64,000 nt of DNA, from positions 248,001-312,000 of the forward strand of contig NZ_JACFRN010000001.1 in the NCBI RefSeq assembly GCF_016100975.1, written 5' to 3'. The stretch comes from Lactobacillus sp. W8174 (lineage in GTDB: Bacteria > Bacillota > Bacilli > Lactobacillales > Lactobacillaceae). Under the pieces are notes generated by a model, which saw only the letters and a program-made list of their open reading frames with translations, ran no database searches and was not told the DNA's origin. The translations under genes and the position numbers were made by a program. This document shows positions 47,482-64,000 of the stretch, in pieces. Positions within the stretch are counted from its first letter, which is position 1, and every line of letters begins with the position of its first letter.

Positions 47482-49296
47482 TTAAAGATTTTGGATATAT
47501 TTCTCTGCGTTTTTAGCTGCTTGGCGTCCTGAATTGACGTTGTGTGCACAGGCTGAACCACCTAAAGTTATTGTGTAAACATCTCTATACTGCATGGTTG
47601 AATCCATACCGGAAGCATATAAACCAGGAATTTTTTCAAAATCATTGTTTATGACTTCGAATTTTCTGTTAGAACCAATGCCTCCTAGACCAATCAAGTT
47701 GGAAGGATCTAATCGAGCAATATAATACGGGCCTTCTTTCATCGAAATAAGCATATCTTGATCTTTATTAAACTCTAGGTCTTTACCATTGTCACAAAAC
47801 GAATTATAATCATTCACTGTTTTTACTAATACATCTGAAGGAAGATTTACTTTTTCAGCTAATTCTGCTATTGAATTTGCTTTAAATAATGAATTACCTT
47901 CGTTTTCTTTTAGTGCTTTAGCTAAAATTTCATCGGCTTTTGCAACATTCTGGGTTAGTTTGTCAAAAATTTCTTGTGTAAATATTTCATATGATACTTT
48001 GGTAGCTTTAATTGCCATTCTTTGATAAAGCAAATTATATTTTTTAACATTTTCATTTACAAAACGTCTACCATCTTGATTGACAAAAATTACTGGTCCT
48101 CCTGATGGCAAAGACATGAATCCGTTTATTGGATCTAGATACAAATGAACTCCTTCATGTGGGAAAGCTTGAATATAGTTCATCATGAATTCTGGTGATT
48201 CTTTTAGCATGTCTTTTGCACCGACTGACATAGCCATTTGATAACCATCACCAGTGTTGCTAGGCATTGAACAGTAATGAATATTCTTTGTTGACCAACC
48301 CTGTTGTTCCAAAAGATCAGGGTTATGACCAACACCTCCAGTATCCAATAGGGTTGCCTTTGCATTGATTTTTATATATCCATTTGGTGTTTTGGCATAT
48401 ACTCCTTTAATAGACCCGTTTTCTTCAATAATGCTCGTAGCTGATGTTTCCAGCAGAAATTTTACATTTAGCTCATCAGCCTTCTTTTTCATATAAGGTA
48501 CGTATCCAACAGATGCAAAACCACCTTTAAACCAATGAAAAGTAGGAAACATGCAAGTACCATGATAATCGTCAACCTTTGTCAATTGCACTCCCAGATT
48601 AACCAGCCAATCGATATTAGCAGCAGAATTATTGATTAAATCAACCCAAAACGAACCATCAGCTCTATATTGTCCCAGTTCAGCTTCTTTGGCAATTATG
48701 TCTTCTTTTTCAGCGTGTATGCCCGCTGCTTGTTGCATTTTAGTATTAATTCCAAAAATACCTTCAACGCCGCCACCGTTTCCAGCTACAAAACCATTTT
48801 TGTCAATAACAATTGTATCCATTTTGAGTTGGCGAGCTTGAACTGCAGCAGCTAATCCAGATATGCCGGCACCGACAATTAAAAAGTCCGTACTATATTC
48901 TTTAATAATATGATTTGGCTTTTTTCGCCAAAATGAATAGCTATTATCTAAACGCTTTTTTGTGTTTACCTTTAGTGGTACAACTTTTTGATCAGCTTCA
49001 GTTTTAAAATCTTGGGGATTTCCTCCAGCTTGCTCAATTACCTTTTCGACTGCATCTAGTAAACCGTTAACTGAATGTGTTGCTCCTGAGATAGCATCAA
49101 CTGATAAGCTCTGCTCATTTATAATTTCCTTAGGAATTTTTGTAAATACTGTTTCTTCCAAACTTCCTGGAATCATTGCTTTTTGAGTCTTAATTTTACT
49201 AATTTTGTTATTACTTATTTCTACCTTTATTGGCATTTGCTCATTTTCATATTCATGAGCAACAACTTGATAAGTACCTGATGTTAGATTTTTCAC
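47482..49296 (-). CDS. FMN_bind-FAD reductase (3), N-terminal FMN_bind
   Basis: A 604-residue flavoprotein with reversed domain order: FMN_bind first (residues 1-85, motif SVDAISGATHSVNG with Thr 73 as predicted flavin acceptor), then an FAD_binding_2 domain from about 115 (TDFLIVGAGISGLAAAVQA). It contains RRFVNENV and a fumarate-reductase-like MPSNTGDGYQMAM, but the H-Y-T-M-G-G and R-x-G-G signatures are replaced (LGGIGSNRKFE and TLGGSACAHN). This order is that of urocanate/hydroxycinnamate-type reductases; the substrate is not defined. No signal peptide or haem motifs. Divergent from a LysR gene. Confidence 0.82.
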   Translation of the reverse strand: MKNLTSGTYQVVAHEYENEQMPIKVEISNNKISKIKTQKAMIPGSLEETVFTKIPKEIINEQSLSVDAISGATHSVNGLLDAVEKVIEQAGGNPQDFKTEADQKVVPLKVNTKKRLDNSYSFWRKKPNHIIKEYSTDFLIVGAGISGLAAAVQARQLKMDTIVIDKNGFVAGNGGGVEGIFGINTKMQQAAGIHAEKEDIIAKEAELGQYRADGSFWVDLINNSAANIDWLVNLGVQLTKVDDYHGTCMFPTFHWFKGGFASVGYVPYMKKKADELNVKFLLETSATSIIEENGSIKGVYAKTPNGYIKINAKATLLDTGGVGHNPDLLEQQGWSTKNIHYCSMPSNTGDGYQMAMSVGAKDMLKESPEFMMNYIQAFPHEGVHLYLDPINGFMSLPSGGPVIFVNQDGRRFVNENVKKYNLLYQRMAIKATKVSYEIFTQEIFDKLTQNVAKADEILAKALKENEGNSLFKANSIAELAEKVNLPSDVLVKTVNDYNSFCDNGKDLEFNKDQDMLISMKEGPYYIARLDPSNLIGLGGIGSNRKFEVINNDFEKIPGLYASGMDSTMQYRDVYTITLGGSACAHNVNSGRQAAKNAEKYIQNL

Positions 49297-49429: not shown

Positions 49430-50326
49430 ATGAATCTTGAACACTTAGAAGTATTCGTAAATTTAGCGGAGACTTTAAATTTTTCTCGAACGGCCATTGA
49501 AATGAACCTTTCACAATCAGCAGTATCACAAATAATTTCATCAATGGAAAAAGAGCTTGACTTTTTATTATTTAAAAGAAGCAGAAAGCAAGTGGATTTA
49601 ACAGAGAGTGGCAAAGAGTTTTACTATTCTATAAAACCGCTATTAAGCGTTTATGATAAGTCGGTACAAAAGGCAAAATCAGCTGCAGCTAAAAAAAGAA
49701 ATAATTTAACTATCGGTTATAGCGGAACGCCATATGAAATTTCAATATTACCAAAGATAATTAAATATTATGAAAGAACTCATAAAGAAAATGCCTTATC
49801 TATTTTTTTAGAAAATTACGCACACAATGAATTAAAAGACAGACTAATTAATGGTGATTGTGACATTATATTTACGATGCCGGATATCATAGCCAAAATG
49901 GAAAACGTTAAGTATATAAATCTAGTTACGGGGCAGTATTGTGTTAACTTTTATAAGCCTGTTTTTGATAAACAGAACTGCTTTAAAATTTCAGGATTAA
50001 GCAATTTTAGGTTAGTTTTTTCTGATAGTAAGTGGTGTCCACCGTCACAAAATGCTTTACAGAAATATATCATTGCCATGAATGAGAATGTTAATATTGC
50101 ATATGCCAATAATATTTTAAGTGCTTATTTGATGGTTAAAGCAGGGCTGGGAATTGGCATTTGGGCAGATTTTGTCAATGCTTATCATGATGAAACAATT
50201 GTTAGTGTTCCTTTAAAATATGCTATTAAGCCCAATTATGGAATTGCTATGCTAAATTATGGTGAACCAATAAGTGCTAAACGTTTTGCCAATTGGCTCA
50301 CACAAAACTTTTCAAATTTTTGTTGA
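49430..50326 (+). CDS. LysR family transcriptional regulator
   Basis: A 298-residue LysR protein: LEHLEVFVNLAETLNFSRTA and LSQSAVSQIISSMEKEL form the HTH (residues 3-45), effector domain after about 90. It is divergent from reductase 3 and is its likely regulator. AAAGAGAATAAAAA precedes ATG; the ribosome site is weak. Its stop codon (TGA 50324-50326) lies within the -35 box of the next transcript. Confidence 0.87.
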   Translation: MNLEHLEVFVNLAETLNFSRTAIEMNLSQSAVSQIISSMEKELDFLLFKRSRKQVDLTESGKEFYYSIKPLLSVYDKSVQKAKSAAAKKRNNLTIGYSGTPYEISILPKIIKYYERTHKENALSIFLENYAHNELKDRLINGDCDIIFTMPDIIAKMENVKYINLVTGQYCVNFYKPVFDKQNCFKISGLSNFRLVFSDSKWCPPSQNALQKYIIAMNENVNIAYANNILSAYLMVKAGLGIGIWADFVNAYHDETIVSVPLKYAIKPNYGIAMLNYGEPISAKRFANWLTQNFSNFC

Positions 50327-54410: not shown

Positions 54411-55814
54411 ATGAGCAAAAAAGAATACCGTGTTGAAAGTGATACCATTGGCCCAGTAAAAATACCCAAAGAAGCTTTATGGGGACCCCAAACTGAACGC
54501 AGTCGCAATAATTTTCCTAGTGGCGAATTAATGCCTCTTGCAATTATCCGAGCATTTTTGCATTTGAAGAAAGCTGCAGCTGAATCAAATGTCGAAGTGG
54601 GGGATGAAACAGCTGATAAAGGTGCGGCAATTGAAGAAGCTATTGACCAGTTGTTAAAATTGAATGATAGCGAGCTTCGTAAAGATTTTCCGCTTCATGT
54701 CTTGCAAACAGGATCGGGAACCCAAAGTAATATGAACGTTAATGAAGTCGTTGCTAATTTAGCTAATAGACTTCATCCAGATTTAAACATTTTACCAAAT
54801 GATGATGTCAATCGGGGACAATCTTCAAATGATACTTATCCTACTGCTATGAATATTGTAGCTGTTGAAGCACTGGATAAACTTGAACCGGCGGTACAAC
54901 ATCTTATTGATGAACTTAAAATTAAACAAAATAAATATTGGAAAACTGTCAAGGTAGGCCGTACTCACTTGCAAGATGCTACGCCTATTACTTTTGGTCA
55001 AGAAATTTCGGGCTATATTTCCGCGTTAAAGCACGACTTGAATTATATTCAAGAACTCAAGCCAACATTGTATGAACTGGCAATAGGAGGGACAGCTGTT
55101 GGTACAGGACTTAATGCTGCGCCTGGAATGACTGCCAAAATTGCCAGTAAATTGTCTCAAGTATATGGACATGATTTTAAAGTTAATACCAATAAGTTCT
55201 GGGGCCTAGCTCATCATTCTGGTTTAGACGTTGTTCATGGTGCTTTAAAAACTTTAGCTGCTGATATGTTTAAAATTGCTCAAGACATCAGGTTTTTGGC
55301 TTCTGGCCCAAGAGCTGGCTATCATGAGCTTAATATACCAGCTAATGAACCCGGGTCTTCAATTATGCCTGGTAAAGTCAACCCCACGCAAGCTGAAGCT
55401 GTAACCATGGCAGCCGCAAAAGTTTTTGGTAATGATACTACTATTACTTTTGCGTGTTCACAAGGCAATTTTGAAATGAATGTCTATAAAACAGTAATGA
55501 TTACAGCTTTTCTTGATTCTTGTGATATTTTAACTGGTACTATTACGGGGTTTGCTGATAAAATGATTGCTGGCTTAACAGTTAATGCAGAGAAGATGGA
55601 TGATCTGCTTGAAAGCTCATTAATGACAGTTACGGCATTATCGCCTCATATAGGTTACCATGCAGCTGCGAAAATTGCTCAAACTGCAGATAAGGAAGGA
55701 ACCACTCTTAAGGAAGCAGCGCTTAAAAGTGGTAAATTAACCAAAGAAGAATATGATAAATGGATGGATTATATGGCGATGACCAATATATCACAAACTA
55801 ATCCTGAAAAATAA
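54411..55814 (+). CDS. fumC: Class II fumarate hydratase (fumarase C)
   Basis: A 467-residue fumarase of the aspartase/fumarase superfamily: GTQSNMNVNEVVANLA, the active-site HLQDATPITFGQE, and the signature GSSIMPGKVNPTQAE (about 318). It interconverts malate and fumarate without iron-sulfur. AAGGAGAC precedes ATG. It is followed 28 bases later by a fumarate reductase gene; together they turn malate into succinate. Confidence 0.95.
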   Translation: MSKKEYRVESDTIGPVKIPKEALWGPQTERSRNNFPSGELMPLAIIRAFLHLKKAAAESNVEVGDETADKGAAIEEAIDQLLKLNDSELRKDFPLHVLQTGSGTQSNMNVNEVVANLANRLHPDLNILPNDDVNRGQSSNDTYPTAMNIVAVEALDKLEPAVQHLIDELKIKQNKYWKTVKVGRTHLQDATPITFGQEISGYISALKHDLNYIQELKPTLYELAIGGTAVGTGLNAAPGMTAKIASKLSQVYGHDFKVNTNKFWGLAHHSGLDVVHGALKTLAADMFKIAQDIRFLASGPRAGYHELNIPANEPGSSIMPGKVNPTQAEAVTMAAAKVFGNDTTITFACSQGNFEMNVYKTVMITAFLDSCDILTGTITGFADKMIAGLTVNAEKMDDLLESSLMTVTALSPHIGYHAAAKIAQTADKEGTTLKEAALKSGKLTKEEYDKWMDYMAMTNISQTNPEK

Positions 55815-55842: not shown

Positions 55843-57240
55843 ATGGGAAAATTTGTTTTTAGGCCTAACGGCAGTGCAGAAATTAAAGACCGTTATGATG
55901 CAGTAATCGTTGGAGCCGGTGGCGCCGGTTTAACGGCCGCAATTCAAGCAAAAGAACTAGGCTTGAATGTCGCAGTTTTTGAAAAAAATGCTGACCTTGG
56001 TGGAAATACTAACAGGGCTTCATCGGGCATGAATGCTTCTGAGAGTCTGGTTCAGCTTAATGAAGGAATTATAGATAATAAGGAAGACTTTTACCAGGAA
56101 ACTTTAAAGGGTGGAGGCAAACTAAATGACCGCGACCTTTTGAGATATTTTGTTGACCACTCTGCAGTAGCAATTGACTGGTTGATGAATCATGGCATCG
56201 AGTTAACAAATTTAACGATAACTGGTGGTATGAGTAAAAAAAGGGCTCACCGTCCTGCCTCAATGGCACCAGTTGGCAGTTATTTAGTAACAGGAGCTTT
56301 GAAGCAAATTCAAGAAAAAAATATTCCGGTTTTTAATAATTCTCGTGTAATTAGTTTATTACAAGATGAGCAGAAAAAAGTTGTAGGAATTGAAGTTGAA
56401 ACTGATTCAGGAATTAAAAAGGTTCAAGCTACAGCAATTTTACTTGCCTCTGGTGGCTTTGGCTCTTCAAAAGATTTAATACAAAAATACCGTCCAGACC
56501 TGGCGAATTACAAAACAACTAATCAACCCGGAGCTACAGGTGATGGTTTAATGTTAGCTGCCAAAATAGACGCTCAATTAGAGCAAATGGAATTTATTCA
56601 GGTTCACCCTACTGCTCAAACAGATACTGATCACGTCTATTTAATAGGTGAAGGTTTACGTGGCGAAGGTGCAATTTTAGTTAATAAATCTGGTCAGAGA
56701 TTTGTTAATGAGCTTAATACCCGAAAAATTGTATCGGATGCCATCACTGGTTTAGACGAAGATGGCGCATACCTCCTGTTCGACCAAACAATTCGTAATA
56801 ATTTTACTGCTGTTGAATTTTATGATCACGTAGGATTAGTTAGCCAAGGTTCTTCTATTGAGAAGTTGGCGGAAAACATCGGTGTGAATAGTGATAACCT
56901 TAAGGAAACAATCGCAAAATGGAATGAGGCTGTGAAAAGCAAAAATGATAGTGAATTTCAGCGTACTACTGGGATGGATCGCACTATCAAGCAAGGTCCT
57001 TTTTTTGCTATTCATATTAATCCAGCTATTCATTATACTATGGGTGGAATTCATATAACTCCAAAAACTGAAGTTTTGGATTCAGACGGAAATATTATTT
57101 CAGGACTCTATGCCGCAGGAGAAGTTTCAGGAGGATTGCATGGCAATAATAGAATCGGAGGAAACTCAATTGCTGAAACAGTGGTATTTGGAAGGCAGGC
57201 CGGAATACAAATGGCAGAGTTTACTAGACAATATAAATAA
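55843..57240 (+). CDS. Fumarate reductase flavoprotein (soluble, FAD domain only)
   Basis: A 465-residue FAD_binding_2 protein without FMN_bind or haem domain. FAD motif AVIVGAGGAGLTAAIQAKEL; EKNADLGGNTNRASSGMNAS; and all fumarate-reductase active-site elements: MEFIQVHPTAQTD with GEGLRGEGAILVN, RFVNEL, AIHYTMGGIHI and GNNRIGGNSIAE. This is the one flavoprotein here that looks like an authentic fumarate reductase. No signal peptide, so NADH or reduced flavin is the likely donor; its partner is unknown. A terminator follows at 57247. Confidence 0.88.
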   Translation: MGKFVFRPNGSAEIKDRYDAVIVGAGGAGLTAAIQAKELGLNVAVFEKNADLGGNTNRASSGMNASESLVQLNEGIIDNKEDFYQETLKGGGKLNDRDLLRYFVDHSAVAIDWLMNHGIELTNLTITGGMSKKRAHRPASMAPVGSYLVTGALKQIQEKNIPVFNNSRVISLLQDEQKKVVGIEVETDSGIKKVQATAILLASGGFGSSKDLIQKYRPDLANYKTTNQPGATGDGLMLAAKIDAQLEQMEFIQVHPTAQTDTDHVYLIGEGLRGEGAILVNKSGQRFVNELNTRKIVSDAITGLDEDGAYLLFDQTIRNNFTAVEFYDHVGLVSQGSSIEKLAENIGVNSDNLKETIAKWNEAVKSKNDSEFQRTTGMDRTIKQGPFFAIHINPAIHYTMGGIHITPKTEVLDSDGNIISGLYAAGEVSGGLHGNNRIGGNSIAETVVFGRQAGIQMAEFTRQYK

Positions 57241-57246
57241 ATATTT

Positions 57247-57276
57247 AAAATGCTTAGAATTTCTAAGCATTTTTTA
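57247..57276 (+). terminator. Terminator after the fumarate reductase gene
   Basis: AAAATGCTTAGA (57247-57258) pairs with TCTAAGCATTTT (57262-57273); T-tail. Confidence 0.85.
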
Positions 57277-57343: not shown

Positions 57344-57372
57344 TTGAAAAACACTATAATAAATTTTATAAT
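57344..57372 (+). promoter_or_regulatory. Promoter of the citrate operon (dehydrogenase to citF)
   Basis: TTGAAA (57344-57349), 17 bases, TATAAT (57367-57372), about 49 bases before ATG 57421. Confidence 0.75.
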
Positions 57373-57420: not shown

Positions 57421-58350
57421 ATGAATAAAAAGGTTTTACTAGTTGGTGATGGAGCAGTAGGTTCAACTTTTGCCAATGATTTATTACAACATACCAGAGT
57501 TGACGAGCTGGTTATTTGCGATGTGGTAAAAAAACGCCCACTGGGTGATTCAATGGACTTAGAGGATATACTGCCTTTTACCGGAGAATGTGATATTCAT
57601 TCCGGAGAATACTCTGATGCAAAAGATGCTGATGTTGTTGTGATCACAGCTGGTGTTCCCCGCAAGCCGGGAGAAAGCCGTCTGGATCTGGTTAATAAAA
57701 ACGTTAATATTTTAAAGAGTATTATTCAACCTGTAGTTGAATCTGGGTTTTCTGGCATTTTTGTTGTCTCTGCTAATCCAGTTGATATTTTAACAACGCT
57801 GACTCAGAAATTATCTGGTTTTCCTAAAAATAAAGTAATTGGAACGGGTACTTCCCTTGATTCAGCACGTTTAAAGGTTGACTTAGCCAGAAGACTACAT
57901 GTTCCTGTTGCTGAAGTAAATTCAATGGTTTTAGGAGAACATGGTGATACTTCTTTTGAAAACTTTGATGAGTCAACAGTTAGTGGCAAGCCACTTAAAG
58001 ATTTTGACGGTATTGACAACTCTGTGCTGGATCAAGTAGAATCAGGTATTCGTAAAAAGGGAGGAAAAATAATTGAAAATAAAGGTGCTACATTTTATGG
58101 CATTGCGATGATGTTGACCCAGATAGTTACTGCTATATTAACTAATCAATCAATTGCCTTGCCTTTATCAGCACCAATTAAAGGTGAATATGAAATTAAA
58201 AATGAGCTTTATCTAGGAACACCTACTGTAATAAATGGTGTTGGAATTAGTCAGGTGCTTGAGACTAAGCTTTCTGAAGCTGAAAAAACTAAGATGCTGA
58301 ACTCTGCTTCCAAAATGCAGGAAGTACTAGATAATATTACTTTAGATTAA
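57421..58350 (+). CDS. Lactate/malate dehydrogenase family protein, predicted malate dehydrogenase
   Basis: A 309-residue NAD-dependent 2-hydroxyacid dehydrogenase. LLVGDGAVGSTFANDL is the Rossmann loop; the substrate loop is TAGVPRKPGESRLDL; DSARL and VLGEHGDTSF (catalytic His) follow. At the specificity position (102 in LDH numbering, residue 81 here) LDHs have Gln, but this has Arg, the malate dehydrogenase residue; Arg 87 is catalytic Arg109. GATFYGIA retains the LDH Thr. Start ATG 57421 (an earlier ATG at 57403 is the ribosome-site region AAAGGAAATG). Heads an operon with citrate lyase genes, so reduction of oxaloacetate to malate fits. Biochemical proof is lacking. Confidence 0.8.
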   Translation: MNKKVLLVGDGAVGSTFANDLLQHTRVDELVICDVVKKRPLGDSMDLEDILPFTGECDIHSGEYSDAKDADVVVITAGVPRKPGESRLDLVNKNVNILKSIIQPVVESGFSGIFVVSANPVDILTTLTQKLSGFPKNKVIGTGTSLDSARLKVDLARRLHVPVAEVNSMVLGEHGDTSFENFDESTVSGKPLKDFDGIDNSVLDQVESGIRKKGGKIIENKGATFYGIAMMLTQIVTAILTNQSIALPLSAPIKGEYEIKNELYLGTPTVINGVGISQVLETKLSEAEKTKMLNSASKMQEVLDNITLD

Positions 58351-58369: not shown

Positions 58370-59080
58370 ATGCAGGTTGGAAAAAGAATTTTTTTAAAAA
58401 GAAACCTTCCACAAAAAGAGGTAATAGATGCATACAAAAAATTGCCATCGTCAAATGTGGCTGATTGTATGAATAGAACAGGCGCAATGGCACCGAGAAT
58501 TAAGCTTATGTCCAATCCTCATGAGGAAATGTGTGGGCCAGCTTTTACAGTTCATAATCGTCCAGGTGATAATCTGACCATTTATGCAGCTTTAAAATAT
58601 TGTCATGAAGGCGATATCGTTGTCATTGACAATGAGAATGACAATACCAGGGCCGTTATTGGCGAAGTGATGATGACCTGGCTTCGCGACCAAAGACATA
58701 TTGCTGGAGTCGTAGTTGATGGGCCAATACGTGACATAGATAGTTTGCGTGATTGGGACTTGCCCATTTATGCGGTTAGCACGACACCTGACGGCCCATA
58801 TAAAGAGGGCCCAGGAGAAATAAATGTTCCAATTTCTTGTGGGAATGTGAGTGTTAATCCTGGTGACGTGATTTTAGGTGATGCAGATGGTGTTATAAAA
58901 ATTGCTTTAGAAGAAGCAAGTGAATTACTTCCAGCTGTCCAGGATTTTCACAAAAAAGATGATGCCAAAGCAGCAAGTTTTCATGATGGCACAGGAAATA
59001 TAAATTGGCTTGATGAAGAACTGAAGAATAAAAATTATGAAATTATCGACGATTTTTATCGCCCGGAAAATTACAGGTAA
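58370..59080 (+). CDS. RraA-like aldolase / oxaloacetate decarboxylase family protein
   Basis: A 236-residue protein of the RraA/HMG-aldolase family: NVADCMNRTGAMAPRIKLM, EGDIVVIDNEND with VVVDGPIRDID (Arg-Asp metal/substrate pair, about residue 122), and GNVSVNPGDVILGDADGVI. Bacterial members cleave 4-hydroxy-4-methyl-2-oxoglutarate and often decarboxylate oxaloacetate to pyruvate. In a citrate-lyase operon with no classic oxaloacetate decarboxylase visible, this is a good candidate for that step. Close spacing (19 bases) to the dehydrogenase and 5 bases to the DASS gene shows one operon. Confidence 0.8.
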   Translation: MQVGKRIFLKRNLPQKEVIDAYKKLPSSNVADCMNRTGAMAPRIKLMSNPHEEMCGPAFTVHNRPGDNLTIYAALKYCHEGDIVVIDNENDNTRAVIGEVMMTWLRDQRHIAGVVVDGPIRDIDSLRDWDLPIYAVSTTPDGPYKEGPGEINVPISCGNVSVNPGDVILGDADGVIKIALEEASELLPAVQDFHKKDDAKAASFHDGTGNINWLDEELKNKNYEIIDDFYRPENYR

Positions 59081-59085
59081 TTAAA

Positions 59086-60552
59086 ATGAAAACACTAGAA
59101 AAAGTTAATTACAAGGGATTTATCTTACCCCTGGCTGTTGGTGTTATACTCTGGTGCATCACGCCTTTGCGTCCTGCAGGTTTATCAGCTCCAGACTGGG
59201 AGATGTTTGCTATTTTCGTAGCAACTATCGTTGGATGTATCACTAAACCTTTGCCAATAGGCGGCACCACTTTAATCGGACTTATAGTAACGGTTTTAGT
59301 TGGTTTAGCCCCAATCAAGGACATTGCAGATCCTAAAACAGGTAAAGTAACAACAGGAATTCTCAGTGCCTTTAGTAATTCAGCTTCTTGGCTAATTGCT
59401 ATGGCTTTCATCATGGCCTATGGTATTAGTAAAACTGGTTTGGGCAATCGAATAGCCTATTGGATGATTAAACGTTTCGGAAAGAAGTCCATTGGTATCG
59501 GCTATGCCATTACTGGATTGGAATTAGTTTTAGGAGCTTTGATTCCATCAAACAGTGCCAGAACTGGAGGAGTCGTTTGGCCGGTAACCGAATCAATATC
59601 TAAAGATTATGATTCATATCCTAATGATCCTTCCCGCAAGAAAATCGGTGCCTACCTCAGCTTTATGGCCTTTCATGCCAATATTCTTTCAACTGCCCTC
59701 TTTATTACCGGCGCGGCACCGAATATGGTTGCTTCACAAATGGCAGCACAGAAAAATTATAACATGACCTGGATTAGCTGGTTTTCAGCAGCTGTAGTTC
59801 CTGTTCTGGTTGCGACTATAGTTATTCCACTTGTAATTTATAAAATTTTTCCACCTGAAATAAAAGAAACACCTAATGCTGAAAAATGGGCTACTGATCA
59901 TTTAAAGGACATGGGGCCAGTTACAAAACCAGAAAAAATTATGTCAATGGTGTTTTTACTAGCCATAATTTTATGGGTTTTATCTGGCGTTTTTGATATT
60001 CCTCAATTAGATTCAACTTTCGTTGCTTTTCTAGCGGTTGGTTTGTTGCTGTTAACTGGTGTTTTAACCATGAAAGACGCCTTAAACCAAACTGGTGCTT
60101 GGAATATTTTGATTTGGCTGTCAATTTTAATTTTTATGGCAAGTAAACTTATTTCATTTGGCTTTATTGACTGGTTCTCAAAGACTATTCAAACAAGTCT
60201 TCACGGCATCAGCTGGCAAATAGTATTAGTGGTTTTGGTAATATTGATGTTTTATACTCACTATTTCTTTGCTAGTGGAACCGCTCATATGACCGCCTTA
60301 TATTTGCCATTCTTGTCAGTGGCAGTAGCTACTGGTGCTCCTTTGGGACTTTCTGCAATGCTGCTTGCATTTACAGGTGCTTTCAATGCTTCAACCACTC
60401 ACTACGCCAATGGACCAGCTTCAATTTTAGCTACTACAGGTTACATTAAACAAGGTGAATGGTGGAAATACAACTTTATTTTAGGAATTATCTATTTACT
60501 GATTTTTGGTGTAATTGGAACTTTATGGATGAAAGTTATCGGAATCTGGTAA
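59086..60552 (+). CDS. DASS family citrate/dicarboxylate transporter (2)
   Basis: A 488-residue membrane transporter similar to the one at 44111 (both ITPLRPAGL/LTPLKPAAI near the start, SNSARTGG versus SNNARVNG, and the late substrate loop ASTTHYANGPASIL). Regions FSNSASWLIAMAFIMAYGIS and ALIPSNSARTGGVVWPV are DASS signatures. Position in the citrate lyase operon points to citrate uptake, perhaps in exchange for succinate as in CitT. About 12 helices. The alpha/beta hydrolase begins directly after its stop codon. Confidence 0.87.
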   Translation: MKTLEKVNYKGFILPLAVGVILWCITPLRPAGLSAPDWEMFAIFVATIVGCITKPLPIGGTTLIGLIVTVLVGLAPIKDIADPKTGKVTTGILSAFSNSASWLIAMAFIMAYGISKTGLGNRIAYWMIKRFGKKSIGIGYAITGLELVLGALIPSNSARTGGVVWPVTESISKDYDSYPNDPSRKKIGAYLSFMAFHANILSTALFITGAAPNMVASQMAAQKNYNMTWISWFSAAVVPVLVATIVIPLVIYKIFPPEIKETPNAEKWATDHLKDMGPVTKPEKIMSMVFLLAIILWVLSGVFDIPQLDSTFVAFLAVGLLLLTGVLTMKDALNQTGAWNILIWLSILIFMASKLISFGFIDWFSKTIQTSLHGISWQIVLVVLVILMFYTHYFFASGTAHMTALYLPFLSVAVATGAPLGLSAMLLAFTGAFNASTTHYANGPASILATTGYIKQGEWWKYNFILGIIYLLIFGVIGTLWMKVIGIW

Positions 60553-61347
60553 ATGCTTAATGAGAAGAGTTTTATCACTAATGATAATATACGAATAGCA
60601 TATTATGATACTGAAAAAGATAAACAGCCTGTATTGGCAGTTCCCGGTATAGGAAGCACCGCAATATTATGGGAAGAAGTTGCTAAACTCTTTGCATCTG
60701 ATTATCGTTTTATTGTAATAGATCCGCGTAATCAGGGACGGTCACAAAGAACATTTAAAGGACAGCGTATCAGTCGTCATGCAGCTGATTTAGAGGAACT
60801 GATTACCAAGTTAAACTTGAAAGGAATTGTTGCTATTGGAAATTCAATGGGTGCAGCAAATATTTGGGCTTATGTTTCATTGTTTGGCTATGACAGACTA
60901 AAGGCAATTATCGATTTGGATCAGCCTCCTAAAATGATTCGTGATAGCTCTTGGCAATATGGCTTTAAAGATTTAACTTGGCAGAATTACCCGGATTATT
61001 TGAAGGCGGATCTTGGCAATGGCATTTATGCTCATATTAATTATGAGATGTTTAAAAAGGCCAAAATGGAAACTCAAAAATATCCATATAATGCTGAAGA
61101 GAATTATCTTTGTCGTGTAGATCATGCTGAGCAGGATTGGAGAGATGTTTTAATTAATTTAAAAATCCCAATGCTGGTTTTAGCAGGACAGAATTCTCCC
61201 TTTTTTGACTATCACTTCGCCTTTGCCATGGAAAAGTTAAATGCAATAATTAGCGCAAAAGTTATTAAAAATTGTGGACACTTAATTCAGGCTGAACAGC
61301 CTCCTAGCATGTATAAAGAAGTTACGAATTTCTTAAAAAAGATTTAA
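60553..61347 (+). CDS. Alpha/beta hydrolase in the citrate operon
   Basis: A 264-residue alpha/beta hydrolase. Oxyanion text PVLAVPGIGSTAILWEEV, the nucleophile elbow GNSMGAAN (Ser 98) and NCGHLIQAEQP (catalytic His, about 245). The usual catalytic acid spot after strand seven reads AGQNSPFFDY, with Asn where Asp is common, so the acid may be the later Asp. Start codon ATG abuts the transporter stop (TAAATG), showing coupling. Its presence between a citrate transporter and citC is not standard; an esterase or thioesterase acting on an organic acid is possible. Confidence 0.8.
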   Translation: MLNEKSFITNDNIRIAYYDTEKDKQPVLAVPGIGSTAILWEEVAKLFASDYRFIVIDPRNQGRSQRTFKGQRISRHAADLEELITKLNLKGIVAIGNSMGAANIWAYVSLFGYDRLKAIIDLDQPPKMIRDSSWQYGFKDLTWQNYPDYLKADLGNGIYAHINYEMFKKAKMETQKYPYNAEENYLCRVDHAEQDWRDVLINLKIPMLVLAGQNSPFFDYHFAFAMEKLNAIISAKVIKNCGHLIQAEQPPSMYKEVTNFLKKI

Positions 61348-61359
61348 CTCAAAGTGAGA

Positions 61360-62424
61360 ATGAAACAAATGGATAAAACCGTAGAACTTTTTTTAACCTT
61401 GCCGGAAACCAAAAAAAGGTGGCAAAAATTCCTGATTAGTCAAGGAATTAATAATTTTAGCTCTCGTGAAGTTGCTGTGATTGATCATACAGTTGGCCTA
61501 ATTGATGAAGATGGTCAGTTAGTAGGCACAGGTAGCATTGCTGGAAATGTTCTCAAATATATTGCGGTTTCAAATAATGAATCTGTTCAAGGAGCAAGAT
61601 TTAATCAAATAGTTTCAGCACTACAAGAATATCTTTTTAGTCAAAGAATTTATCATTCGTTTGTATTCACTAAGTCAAAATATTCATCCAGTTTTTCTCA
61701 TTTAAACTTTAAGGAACTAGCTCATACCGATGAGGCTGCTTTTTTAGAGAGTGGAACACCAAATATTCAGGATTTTTTGGCAAAAATTCCCATAATAAAA
61801 GACCAAAATCATAAAAAAGTTGCAGCAATTGTCATGAACGCTAATCCATTTACTTTAGGTCATCAAGGGCTGGTAAAACTTGCTAGTAGCGAGAATGATC
61901 TGGTATATGTGTTTGTTGTTGCTACGGATGCTTCGTTATTTAAAACGAATGAAAGAATGGAACTTGTAAAAAAAGGAACCTCTGAATACAAAAATGTGTT
62001 AGTAGTTAGTGGTGGAGACTATTTAGTTTCTCAATCAACTTTTCCGGCATACTTTTTAAAATCACCTGATGAACTGATCGCTACGCAAACAGAAATTGAT
62101 GCATTAATTTTTAAAAATAAAATTGCACCGAAACTGGCAATAAAAAAGCGTTATTTAGGTACTGAACCATTTTCAAGAACAACTAATTTCTATAATCAAA
62201 GCTTAAAAAACACACTTAGTCCCAAAATTGACGTTGAAATTGTTAAGCGCTTTTGCAATAACGATCAAATAATTACAGCTACACGAGTCCGTCAGCTGAT
62301 CAAAAGTAATAATTTAAAAGACATTTCAAATTTAGTTCCACCAACTACTTTTGATTTTATTAATAAAAACTATCAAATTTTACAAGAAAGAATAGAGAAA
62401 GGAATGAACATCAATGGAAATTAA
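61360..62424 (+). CDS. citC: [Citrate (pro-3S)-lyase] ligase
   Basis: A 354-residue ligase that acetylates the citrate lyase prosthetic group using acetate and ATP. The N-terminal acyltransferase-like half holds SSREVAVIDHTVGLIDEDGQ. The C-terminal nucleotidyltransferase half starts at VMNANPFTLGHQGLVKLAS (about residue 165, HxGH-like motif in TLGHQ). The start is uncertain: GTG 61354, ATG 61360 and ATG 61369 are all in frame with only a weak ribosome site. citD overlaps its end by 11 bases. Confidence 0.92.
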   Translation: MKQMDKTVELFLTLPETKKRWQKFLISQGINNFSSREVAVIDHTVGLIDEDGQLVGTGSIAGNVLKYIAVSNNESVQGARFNQIVSALQEYLFSQRIYHSFVFTKSKYSSSFSHLNFKELAHTDEAAFLESGTPNIQDFLAKIPIIKDQNHKKVAAIVMNANPFTLGHQGLVKLASSENDLVYVFVVATDASLFKTNERMELVKKGTSEYKNVLVVSGGDYLVSQSTFPAYFLKSPDELIATQTEIDALIFKNKIAPKLAIKKRYLGTEPFSRTTNFYNQSLKNTLSPKIDVEIVKRFCNNDQIITATRVRQLIKSNNLKDISNLVPPTTFDFINKNYQILQERIEKGMNINGN

Positions 62425-62710
62425 GACTGTTGGAGTGGCAGGAACTTTAGAATCTTCAGATATTCAAATAATGGTATCAGCTGGTCAAAATGGCGTTGAA
62501 ATTGATTTGGAATCCGAAGTAGCCAAATCTTACGGGGATCAGATCAAAAAAGTAATAACAGATGTACTTAAAAAATTCGGAATTGAAAATGCAAAGGTTA
62601 AAGCAACTGATAAAGGCGCTCTTGACTGCGTAATTGCTGCACGTACATTGGCTGCAGCTCAAAGAGCAACCGAAACTACTGATAAACCAAGATTGGAGGT
62701 ACTACAATAA
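62414..62710 (+). CDS. citD: Citrate lyase acyl carrier protein (gamma subunit)
   Basis: A 98-residue protein. GVAGTLESSDIQIMV carries the Ser to which the phosphoribosyl-dephospho-CoA group attaches. It carries acetyl and citryl thioesters between the alpha and beta subunits. Start ATG 62414 overlaps citC; citE starts 0 bases after its stop. AGAAAGGAATG is its ribosome site. Confidence 0.94.
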   Translation: MEIKTVGVAGTLESSDIQIMVSAGQNGVEIDLESEVAKSYGDQIKKVITDVLKKFGIENAKVKATDKGALDCVIAARTLAAAQRATETTDKPRLEVLQ

Positions 62711-63625
62711 ATGACTTACGTAAAAAATCGTTTGCGTCGAACTATGATGTTTGTGCCGGGGAATAATCCAGCTATGGTTAAGGATGCCGGTATCTATGGT
62801 GCTGACTCCATTATGTTAGATTTGGAAGATGCAGTTTCTCTAACTGAAAAAGATGCAGCGAGAATGTTAGTATTTAATGCCATTAAAACCGTTGATTTTG
62901 GTGGTGCAGAAGTAGTTGTCAGAATTAATGGTCAAGATACGCCTTTTTATGACGAAGATGTAAAGGCAATGGTTCGAGCAGGAGTCGATGTTATTCGTCT
63001 GCCAAAAACTGAATCAGCTGCAATGATTAAAAAATTAGTAGCTGATATGGAAAAGGCAGAAGAAGAATATGGCGTTGAAAAAGGTTCTATTGGCGTAATG
63101 GCTGCAATTGAAAGTGCTAAAGGTGTTCTTAATGCACCTGAAATTGCAACGGCCACACCATTAATGATGGGTTTGGCAGTTTCTGGCGAAGATTATACTG
63201 CTGATATGCACACTCACCGGTATCCTGACGGACGTGAACTTGAATTTGCTCGTAATATGGTTTTACAAGCTGCTAGAGCTGCAGATGTTTATGCCTTCGA
63301 TACAGTTTTTTCAAATATGAACGACACCGAGGGATTTTACCGCGAGACAAAATATATTTATGAACTTGGGTATGATGGTAAGTCTTTGGTCAATCCACGG
63401 CAAATTCCAATGGTTAATAAAGTATTCAATCCTACTAAAGACGAAATTGAAAATGCACTTGCTGTGCAAAATGCAATTCAGGAAGCAAAAGCAAAAGGTT
63501 CTGGAGTAATTTCGATGAACGGTAAGATGGTTGACAAACCTGTAGTTGAAAAAGCTGATCGTGTTATTGAAACAGCAAAAGCTTCGAATTTAATTGATGA
63601 GGAGGGTAATTACATTGGAGAATAA
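62711..63625 (+). CDS. citE: Citrate lyase beta subunit
   Basis: A 304-residue HpcH/CitE-fold lyase: [51 protein letters not shown] and [17 protein letters not shown]. It cleaves citryl-ACP to acetyl-ACP and oxaloacetate. GGAGG lies inside the end of citD, 8 bases before ATG. citF starts 12 bases before its stop. Confidence 0.95.
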
Positions 63626-64000
63626 AGTAAAGCGCAATTTGCCGGATGATTTGATGACTGATATGAATCTTAAACCATTTAAGTCTGTTGTAGTTGGCAA
63701 TCCTGAAGTAAAGAGAGTTGCACCCAAAGTACAAGTTACCACCGGTGAATCAAAAGTGGTCGATTCTTTAGAAGAAGTTATCAAAAAGACGCTAAAAGAT
63801 GGTATGACTATCTCGTTTCACCATCACTTTAGAAATGGCGATTTTGCTTTTAATAAAGTAATGGATTTAATTATTAAAATGGGTTATCAAAATCTGACTT
63901 TAGCTCCTTCTTCTTTGACTGGTGTTATGAATGACAAAGTAATTGAAGCAATTAAAAAGGGTGTCATTACCAATATTACTTCTTCTGGAATGAGAGGCAG
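63614..64000 (+). CDS. citF: Citrate lyase alpha subunit, N-terminal part (runs off the right edge)
   Basis: A frame open to the window end, about 129 residues of a usual ~510. It begins TTG 63614, 9 bases after GAGGAGGG, and overlaps citE by 12 bases. [20 protein letters not shown] and [19 protein letters not shown] with [13 protein letters not shown] match CitF N-termini. It transfers the citryl group to the acyl carrier protein. citX/citG, needed for the prosthetic group, would lie beyond the window. Confidence 0.92.

Follow-up and report, generated by a model that had tools for sequence, protein, structure and literature searches.

The gene at positions 57421 to 58350 (+) of the window, the 64,000-nucleotide stretch of the Lactobacillus sp. 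W8174 genome that was analysed, likely encodes an L-malate dehydrogenase (MDH). To judge from sequence comparisons, this enzyme has a single origin within the Lactobacillaceae, where it would descend from a duplicate copy of an L-lactate dehydrogenase (LDH). The steps of this change can be proposed with somewhat less assurance: a canonical LDH bearing Gln102 was probably duplicated in this family and became an MDH through Gln102Arg, a convergent Gly-Gly pair and the loss of Glu199, while Thr246 was kept. The most likely role of the predicted enzyme would be to channel the oxaloacetate released by citrate lyase, via malate and fumarate, to succinate.

The gene product and its clade-specific residues

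The product of the gene (P0001) has 309 amino acids followed by a stop codon. A longer frame in the list of open reading frames begins at TTG 57403, but ATG 57421 is the likely start since the motif AAAGGA sits 9 bases before it. The domains of the LDH/MDH fold are present, with both Ldh_1_N (PF00056) and Ldh_1_C (PF02866) over their Pfam cut-offs, and the reading as a predicted NAD-dependent L-malate dehydrogenase draws on the translation, Pfam, NCBIfam and clade-specific residues. The closest solved relatives are the L-LDHs 9jlo, 1ez4 and 6j9s. Among the best 80 of 104 relatives, L. huangpiensis (97%), L. laiwuensis (96%), and L. kimbladii and L. kullabergensis (both 95%) are the nearest named ones; such species belong to the bee-gut Firm-5 group.

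Residue 81 of P0001, equivalent to position 102, is Arg (codon CGC, 57661 to 57663 (+), in the frame starting at 57421). It lies within AGVPRKPGESR, whereas the matching segment of the three solved LDHs reads AGAPQKPGE(T/S)R in the alignments, and P0001 thus lacks the Gln that is canonical in L-lactate dehydrogenases. The specificity loop has LDH length with this Arg, and the loop of the 2-hydroxyisocaproate dehydrogenase (HicDH) type is absent from P0001. The motif GATFYG retains the LDH-type Thr246 (residue 224). In the pocket, the Ala-Tyr of LDHs is replaced by Gly-Gly (residues 214-215) and Glu199 by Ser (residue 178). Counting from His195 and Thr246, residues 214-215 correspond approximately to positions 236-237, presumably a site of the substrate pocket, and residue 178 to position 199. 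The latter is a published signature site, the MDH/LDH signatures being R102/Q102, M199/E199 and A or S246/T246 (PMC9486893).

Relatives were searched for in a named genome collection (best 80 of 104 relatives, on 78 loci) and in 75 genomes of the genus, 397 of the family, 118 of the order and 119 of the phylum, after which stretches were fetched, mostly for best matches, Gln paralogues and outgroups. Position 102 was Arg in 156, Gln in 142 and another residue in 8 of the 306 LDH-family proteins extracted, a set in which one species may figure in both genome sets. The 156 Arg proteins comprised 149 that were more than 50% identical to P0001, five type-3 MDHs (classed as such here, with R102, M199, A246 and P250) and two distant singles, L271 and L080 from Lactonifactor. 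Profile score was rejected as a separator of Arg and Gln proteins, as the lowest Arg score (458.3 bits) and the highest Gln score (459.7 bits) overlap, and the residue was therefore read from the sequence wherever a stretch had been fetched.

Clustering at 88%, with one protein of fewer than 280 residues excluded, gave 65 representatives of the Arg clade, 41 Gln LDHs with at least 43% identity to P0001 (33 from Lactobacillaceae and 8 from other Lactobacillales), 42 other Gln LDHs and the 5 type-3 MDHs. These groups were picked by the residue at position 102 and by their identity to P0001, with thresholds of more than 50% for Arg proteins and 43% or more for Gln proteins. What does not depend on this choice is the separation of the groups in a tree built without the position 102 column. 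All 65 Arg representatives came from Lactobacillaceae and carry either one of nine genus codes or the name Lactobacillus, Companilactobacillus or Secundilactobacillus; codes and names may overlap.

In ten alignment columns, the Arg clade and the 41 Lactobacillales Gln LDHs differ with at least 80% agreement within each group, and four of these columns stand out. At residue 81, all 65 of the former have Arg and all 41 of the latter Gln, and residue 214 is likewise Gly in 65/65 against Ala in 41/41. Residue 215 is Gly in 54/65 against Tyr in 41/41, the pair 214-215 being Gly-Ser or Gly-Ala in 11 of the 65. Residue 178 is Ser in 58/65 against Glu in 41/41. The other 42 Gln LDHs have Ala at residue 214 (41, with one Gly), Tyr at 215 (all 42) and mostly Glu at 178 (36, with four Ser and two Gln); the single Gly214 and the four Ser178 among them weigh somewhat against the MDH reading, though Gly215 occurs in none. 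The type-3 MDHs have Arg81 and Gly214 in 5/5, Gly215 in 4/5 and Met at 178. Arg109, Asp168, Arg171 and His195 are retained in all 65 Arg representatives; as for the published LDH signature, D/E199 with Thr246 (PMC9486893), Thr246 was kept in 65/65 and Glu199 lost in 61/65. The initial annotation, which had noted Arg at residue 81 where LDHs have Gln102, was therefore right on this point. Its description of the rest of the protein as LDH-like applies to Thr246 in GATFYG but not to residues 178 and 214-215, and the MDH-type specificity that it proposed is supported at the level of sequence by Arg102 together with these further clade-wide pocket changes.

In the Gln group, position 102 is encoded by CAA (39) or CAG (2), whereas the Arg group uses CGT (29), CGC (18), AGA (10), CGG (5) and CGA (3); this diversity of Arg codons indicates that the replacement is not recent. 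The fructose-1,6-bisphosphate (FBP) site was dropped as an Arg/Gln marker: position 173 varies in both groups, and His188, a residue of that site, is found in 0/149 Arg-clade proteins but is missing from many Gln LDHs too. Some Arg-type copies have peculiarities of their own. Those at L158 and L166 read VPRQ, with Gln replacing Lys after the Arg, which perhaps reflects a further specificity change; neither has citrate genes nearby, and the neighbours of L158 resemble ribonucleotide reductase genes. Two others, L118 (G082) and L128 (G120), contain one in-frame TAA and are perhaps decaying copies.

In the LDH of B. stearothermophilus, the single change Gln102Arg yields an MDH with a 10^4-fold preference for oxaloacetate (Wilks 1988, cited in PMC4109310) and lowers pyruvate activity more than 8000-fold (PMC4109310). 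Like the Arg clade, this mutant combines Arg102 with an LDH scaffold; it is a laboratory enzyme with one change, whereas the Arg clade is natural and carries further changes throughout. In the predicted enzyme, Arg102 would pair with the second carboxylate of oxaloacetate, and the Gly pair, together with the absence of Glu199, would create room and take away negative charge, so that an NADH-dependent reduction of oxaloacetate to malate is expected. The retained Thr246, also present in the B. stearothermophilus LDH, counts against the MDH reading of the Arg clade. According to a published account, Thr at this position disfavours oxaloacetate, and both substrates are taken by some of the MDHs in which it occurs (PMC9486893).

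Given Thr246 and the LDH scaffold, the enzyme might accept pyruvate, or other 2-oxo acids, as well as oxaloacetate and double as the only L-LDH of the cell. The host genome (G000; 2.05 Mb, 20 contigs, 99.99% complete) lends this some weight, as its three PF00056 genes, P0001 and the paralogues L002 and L003, include no Gln-type L-LDH. L002 and L003 score slightly under the NCBIfam L-LDH cut-off and their loops differ from that of P0001, being HicDH-like by our reading. These loops, and a genome search that returned no Ldh_2-type enzyme, were counted in favour of the MDH reading. P0001 itself exceeds both L-LDH cut-offs (PRK00066, 403.9 against 339 bits; TIGR01771, 327.8 against 303.55 bits) and is under the cut-off of every NCBIfam MDH model among the matches listed. 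Dual specificity is nevertheless unlikely, in view of the loss of pyruvate activity in the B. stearothermophilus mutant and of the many other genomes in which a Gln LDH coexists with the Arg copy. Moreover, G000 has five D-2-hydroxyacid dehydrogenases, of which three (L213, L215 and L216) are nearest to D-LDH models, all under cut-off, and could serve lactate formation.

Descent of the Arg clade

A tree of 86 rows was built with the four trait columns removed and rooted on the type-3 MDHs. It comprised 34 Arg proteins, 20 Gln LDHs with at least 43% identity to P0001, 25 other Gln LDHs (5 from Lactobacillales), the 5 type-3 MDHs and 2 other Arg proteins. The Arg proteins formed one clade (100/99) within the Lactobacillaceae Gln LDHs, several starred branches deep. 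One of the other Arg proteins, L080 10001-10912 of Lactonifactor longoviformis, has Arg102 together with Thr246; it sits outside the Lactobacillaceae clade, on a long branch of its own, and is possibly a separate case.

The NAD-dependent L-LDHs of Lactobacillaceae (TIGR01771; 9jlo, 1ez4, 6j9s), which surround the Arg clade in the tree, share with P0001 the fold, the catalytic residues, Thr246 and 46-55% identity (33 representatives), and differ by Arg102, Gly-Gly for Ala-Tyr and Ser for Glu199. The type-3, LDH-like MDHs (TIGR01763/PRK06223) resemble the Arg clade in Arg102, the Gly pair and the predicted reaction. P0001, however, is only 33-35% identical to the five examples, is under the cut-offs of both MDH models and groups inside the LDHs; it has Ser199 and Thr246 and lacks the Met199, Ala246 and Pro250 of these examples.

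Arg102 could instead be ancestral, the clade being a remnant of the MalDH/LDH intermediate group, which is recognised by mixed pairs such as R102 and T246 (PMC9486893), and no reverted LDH. When all 45 Gln rows were held as one clade, the cost was 25.8 log units and this arrangement was not rejected by the AU test (p-AU 0.134). Forcing 18 Lactobacillales Gln LDHs into one group, with the Arg clade placed outside it, cost 50.3 units and was rejected (p-AU 0.023). This second test, on 72 rows after removal of the type-3 MDHs and of 9 rows that were long or divergent, among which were 7 Lactobacillales Gln LDHs, was devised after the outcome of the first, which is the stricter one. With the depth of the clade among the Lactobacillaceae LDHs and its greater identity to these than to type-3 MDHs, an ancestral Arg102 is improbable, slightly more so than dual specificity. 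An LDH origin, as put forward in the initial annotation, is supported by the tree and by the rejection at the Lactobacillales level, though the stricter test leaves room for the alternative.

Taken together, these features suggest that the Arg clade is likely derived from an LDH and probably represents a natural LDH-to-MDH reversal. Among published specificity transitions, those leading to the canonical, trichomonad, Plasmodium and Cryptosporidium LDHs also involve a change at position 102 or its loop but run in the opposite direction, from MDH to LDH (PMC4109310, PMC9486893). No description of the Lactobacillaceae Arg clade or of an LDH-to-MDH reversal was found in searches of open-licence papers.

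Linkage with citrate and succinate genes

Upstream of the MDH gene lie a class II fumarase gene, fumC (54411 to 55814 (+); best NCBIfam match TIGR00979, 584.5 bits, under the cut-off of 664.75), and a gene for a fumarate reductase-type flavoprotein of the flavocytochrome c family (55843 to 57240 (+); PRK06481 and TIGR01813 over cut-off). Downstream follow genes for an RraA-like protein, possibly an aldolase or oxaloacetate decarboxylase (58370 to 59080 (+); PF03737, PRK06201 just over cut-off), for a DASS-family anion transporter (59086 to 60552 (+); TIGR00785 over cut-off, PF00939) and for an alpha/beta hydrolase (60553 to 61347 (+); PF00561). The transporter may carry citrate or dicarboxylates, as suggested by its neighbour genes. 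The citrate lyase genes come next: citC, for the ligase (61354 to 62424 (+); TIGR00124 over cut-off), citD, for the acyl carrier protein (62414 to 62710 (+); TIGR01608 over cut-off), citE, for the beta subunit (62711 to 63625 (+); TIGR01588, 441.3 bits against a cut-off of 443.4), and the start of citF, for the alpha subunit (63594 to 63998 (+)), whose frame is open at the window end. Past this end (stretch L217), citF (TIGR01584) and citX (TIGR03124) are over cut-off, and a DeoR-like regulator gene, under its model cut-off, lies beyond citX on the other strand.

From the MDH gene through citF, adjacent genes overlap or are separated by no more than 20 bases, so the MDH gene probably opens a citrate transcription unit, predicted as mdh-rraA-dass-abh-citCDEF-citX. 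Consensus scans placed a terminator-like hairpin between the fumarate reductase and MDH genes (57247 to 57273 (+); a 12-pair stem, then a T-rich tail) and a promoter-like site, TTGAAA-17-TATAAT, upstream of the MDH gene (57344 to 57372 (+); 11/12). Neither kind of site is enriched in the region (7 terminator-like sites against 6.3 in shuffles; 30 promoter-like sites against 32.4). Elsewhere in the window, a second fumarate-reductase-like flavoprotein is encoded at 47482-49296 (-), its best NCBIfam match being the vinyl phenol reductase VprA, far under cut-off, and a LysR-looking regulator gene lies beside it at 49430-50326 (+).

Linkage was counted for distinct proteins on loci of at least 9 kb with flanks of about 10 kb, after 138 proteins on loci shorter than 9 kb, 8 identical ones and 1 unrelated Arg protein had been dropped. 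A citrate-lyase, fumarase or fumarate-reductase gene was found near 77 of the 98 Arg loci against none of the 61 Gln loci, 48 of which encode a protein at least 47% identical to P0001. Of the 98 Arg loci, 62 had cit genes nearby, 55 fumC, 50 frd, 60 DASS and 17 rraA. Given the single origin of the Arg clade, these counts are not independent. More telling are the 17 observed gene orders with at least one partner. The partners lie on either side of the Arg gene, and fumC-frd or cit may be present or missing, even if some of these orders differ only through contig or stretch ends. The other 21 Arg loci had no citrate, fumarase or fumarate-reductase gene in their flanks (19 without any partner and 2 with DASS alone), which counts against the proposed role. 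They include a Lactobacillus group (L172-L176, L178 and L180), L025 and L026, and copies from other genera such as L142, whose neighbours appear unrelated by eye, and L155.

In the L. johnsonii group, the Arg gene stands alongside fumC-frd without citrate genes, so that the shared context is better described as a reductive C4 pathway than as a citrate operon. The initial annotation had located the gene inside a citrate operon and had suggested comparing an LDH/MDH tree with the distribution of citrate lyase. The comparison revealed the expected association of the Arg clade with cit genes, and the operon holds for the window, where the gene probably opens the cit unit, but not for the L. johnsonii group.

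Co-occurrence across whole genomes was set aside as the main argument, being weaker than physical linkage. Within the genus, citF was found in 44 of 67 Arg genomes against 2 of 8 others (p 0.049), and fumC is near-universal (72/75). The 67 of 75 genomes with a P0001 match of at least 64% identity were counted as Arg because every such match that was read has Arg. Outside the genus, citF was present in 42 and absent from 10 of 52 Arg genomes, compared with 172 of 397 family genomes overall, those 52 being genomes among the best P0001 matches for which the residue was read, and not a random draw, with at least 7 genomes of similar rank left out. One Lactobacillus genome with citF and fumC, G015, gave no LDH-family match to P0001 at 1e-60.

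As the family of the RraA-like protein includes oxaloacetate decarboxylases and aldolases, the gene directly 3' of the MDH gene may offer a side exit for oxaloacetate, although its product scores under cut-off for the NCBIfam oxaloacetate decarboxylase models. The same neighbour, present in the window and in close relatives, and a pocket probably widened by Gly-Gly could also suit another 2-oxo dicarboxylate, such as 2-oxoglutarate or the product of an RraA-like aldolase, as the substrate in place of oxaloacetate. There is little to recommend this idea, since RraA is near few Arg loci compared with cit and fumC, whose frequent presence points to oxaloacetate and malate as the shared intermediates.

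Proposed pathway and database names

In the proposed pathway, citrate would be taken up through the DASS transporter and cleaved to acetate and oxaloacetate by CitDEF, the citrate lyase, with CitC and CitX serving its maturation. The predicted MDH would reduce oxaloacetate to malate, FumC would convert malate to fumarate and the flavoprotein fumarate to succinate. Such a route would re-oxidise NADH at the malate step and would not need a biotin-type oxaloacetate decarboxylase; no OadA/pyruvate carboxylase domain was found in a search of G000. One malic-domain protein, encoded on another contig of G000, represents a competing use of malate and was counted against this explanation. Conversion of citrate to succinate via MDH, fumarase and fumarate reductase or succinate dehydrogenase has been reported or predicted in several lactobacilli (PMC6680863, PMC3084715, PMC4604094, PMC7555314), among them L. 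panis PM1, L. reuteri and L. gasseri, with citrate lyase likewise included (PMC6680863, PMC3084715). The passages on these three species name an MDH without mention of a derivation from LDH, and none of the succinate-pathway passages cited from the four papers calls a lactobacillar MDH a former LDH.

The enzyme goes by another name in databases. All 11 Arg-clade members scored (P0001 and ten others) are over both L-LDH cut-offs and under those of the listed MDH models, and 30/30 members of the clade alignment match both L-LDH models, with their best E-values on these. The annotation of L. fermentum DR9 lists, in this order, fumarase, flavocytochrome c, 'L-lactate dehydrogenase', DASS, citC, citD and citE, and this 'L-lactate dehydrogenase' contains VPRKPGETR, GDTSF and RGGKII. 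A plasmid L-LDH of L. plantarum reads APQKPGETR, GDSEF and NKAYEII, with no citrate genes listed around it. That the enzyme is an ordinary L-LDH, as its name and these model scores would have it, is hardly credible, given that Gln102 and Ala214 are replaced throughout the clade and Glu199 is lost in 61/65, with all catalytic residues kept.

Since the NCBI models call it L-lactate dehydrogenase, some lactobacilli seem, to judge by annotation, to lack a step of their succinate branch. In the genome of L. fermentum 222, fumarase and fumarate reductase were reported and MDH was reported missing (PMC4604094). The Arg-type gene, seen in DR9, a strain other than 222, may supply the oxaloacetate-to-malate step missed by annotation. 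The mislabelling is not universal, since other papers do name a lactobacillar MDH gene (e.g. PMC3084715, PMC6680863). Across the Lactobacillaceae, this subfamily is likely, though not proven, to be an LDH reconverted to an MDH and still named after its ancestor.

The reconversion would constitute a natural experiment on the Gln102Arg laboratory switch, with one origin and with a Gln LDH retained alongside the Arg copy in many genomes, and its short list of accompanying changes makes their order and interplay measurable. Among mono-colonised bees, succinate was produced only with Firm-5, and citrate was used by several members (PMC5726620). The predicted MDH could also explain, at the level of the enzyme, the formation of succinate by Firm-5 lactobacilli in the bee gut.
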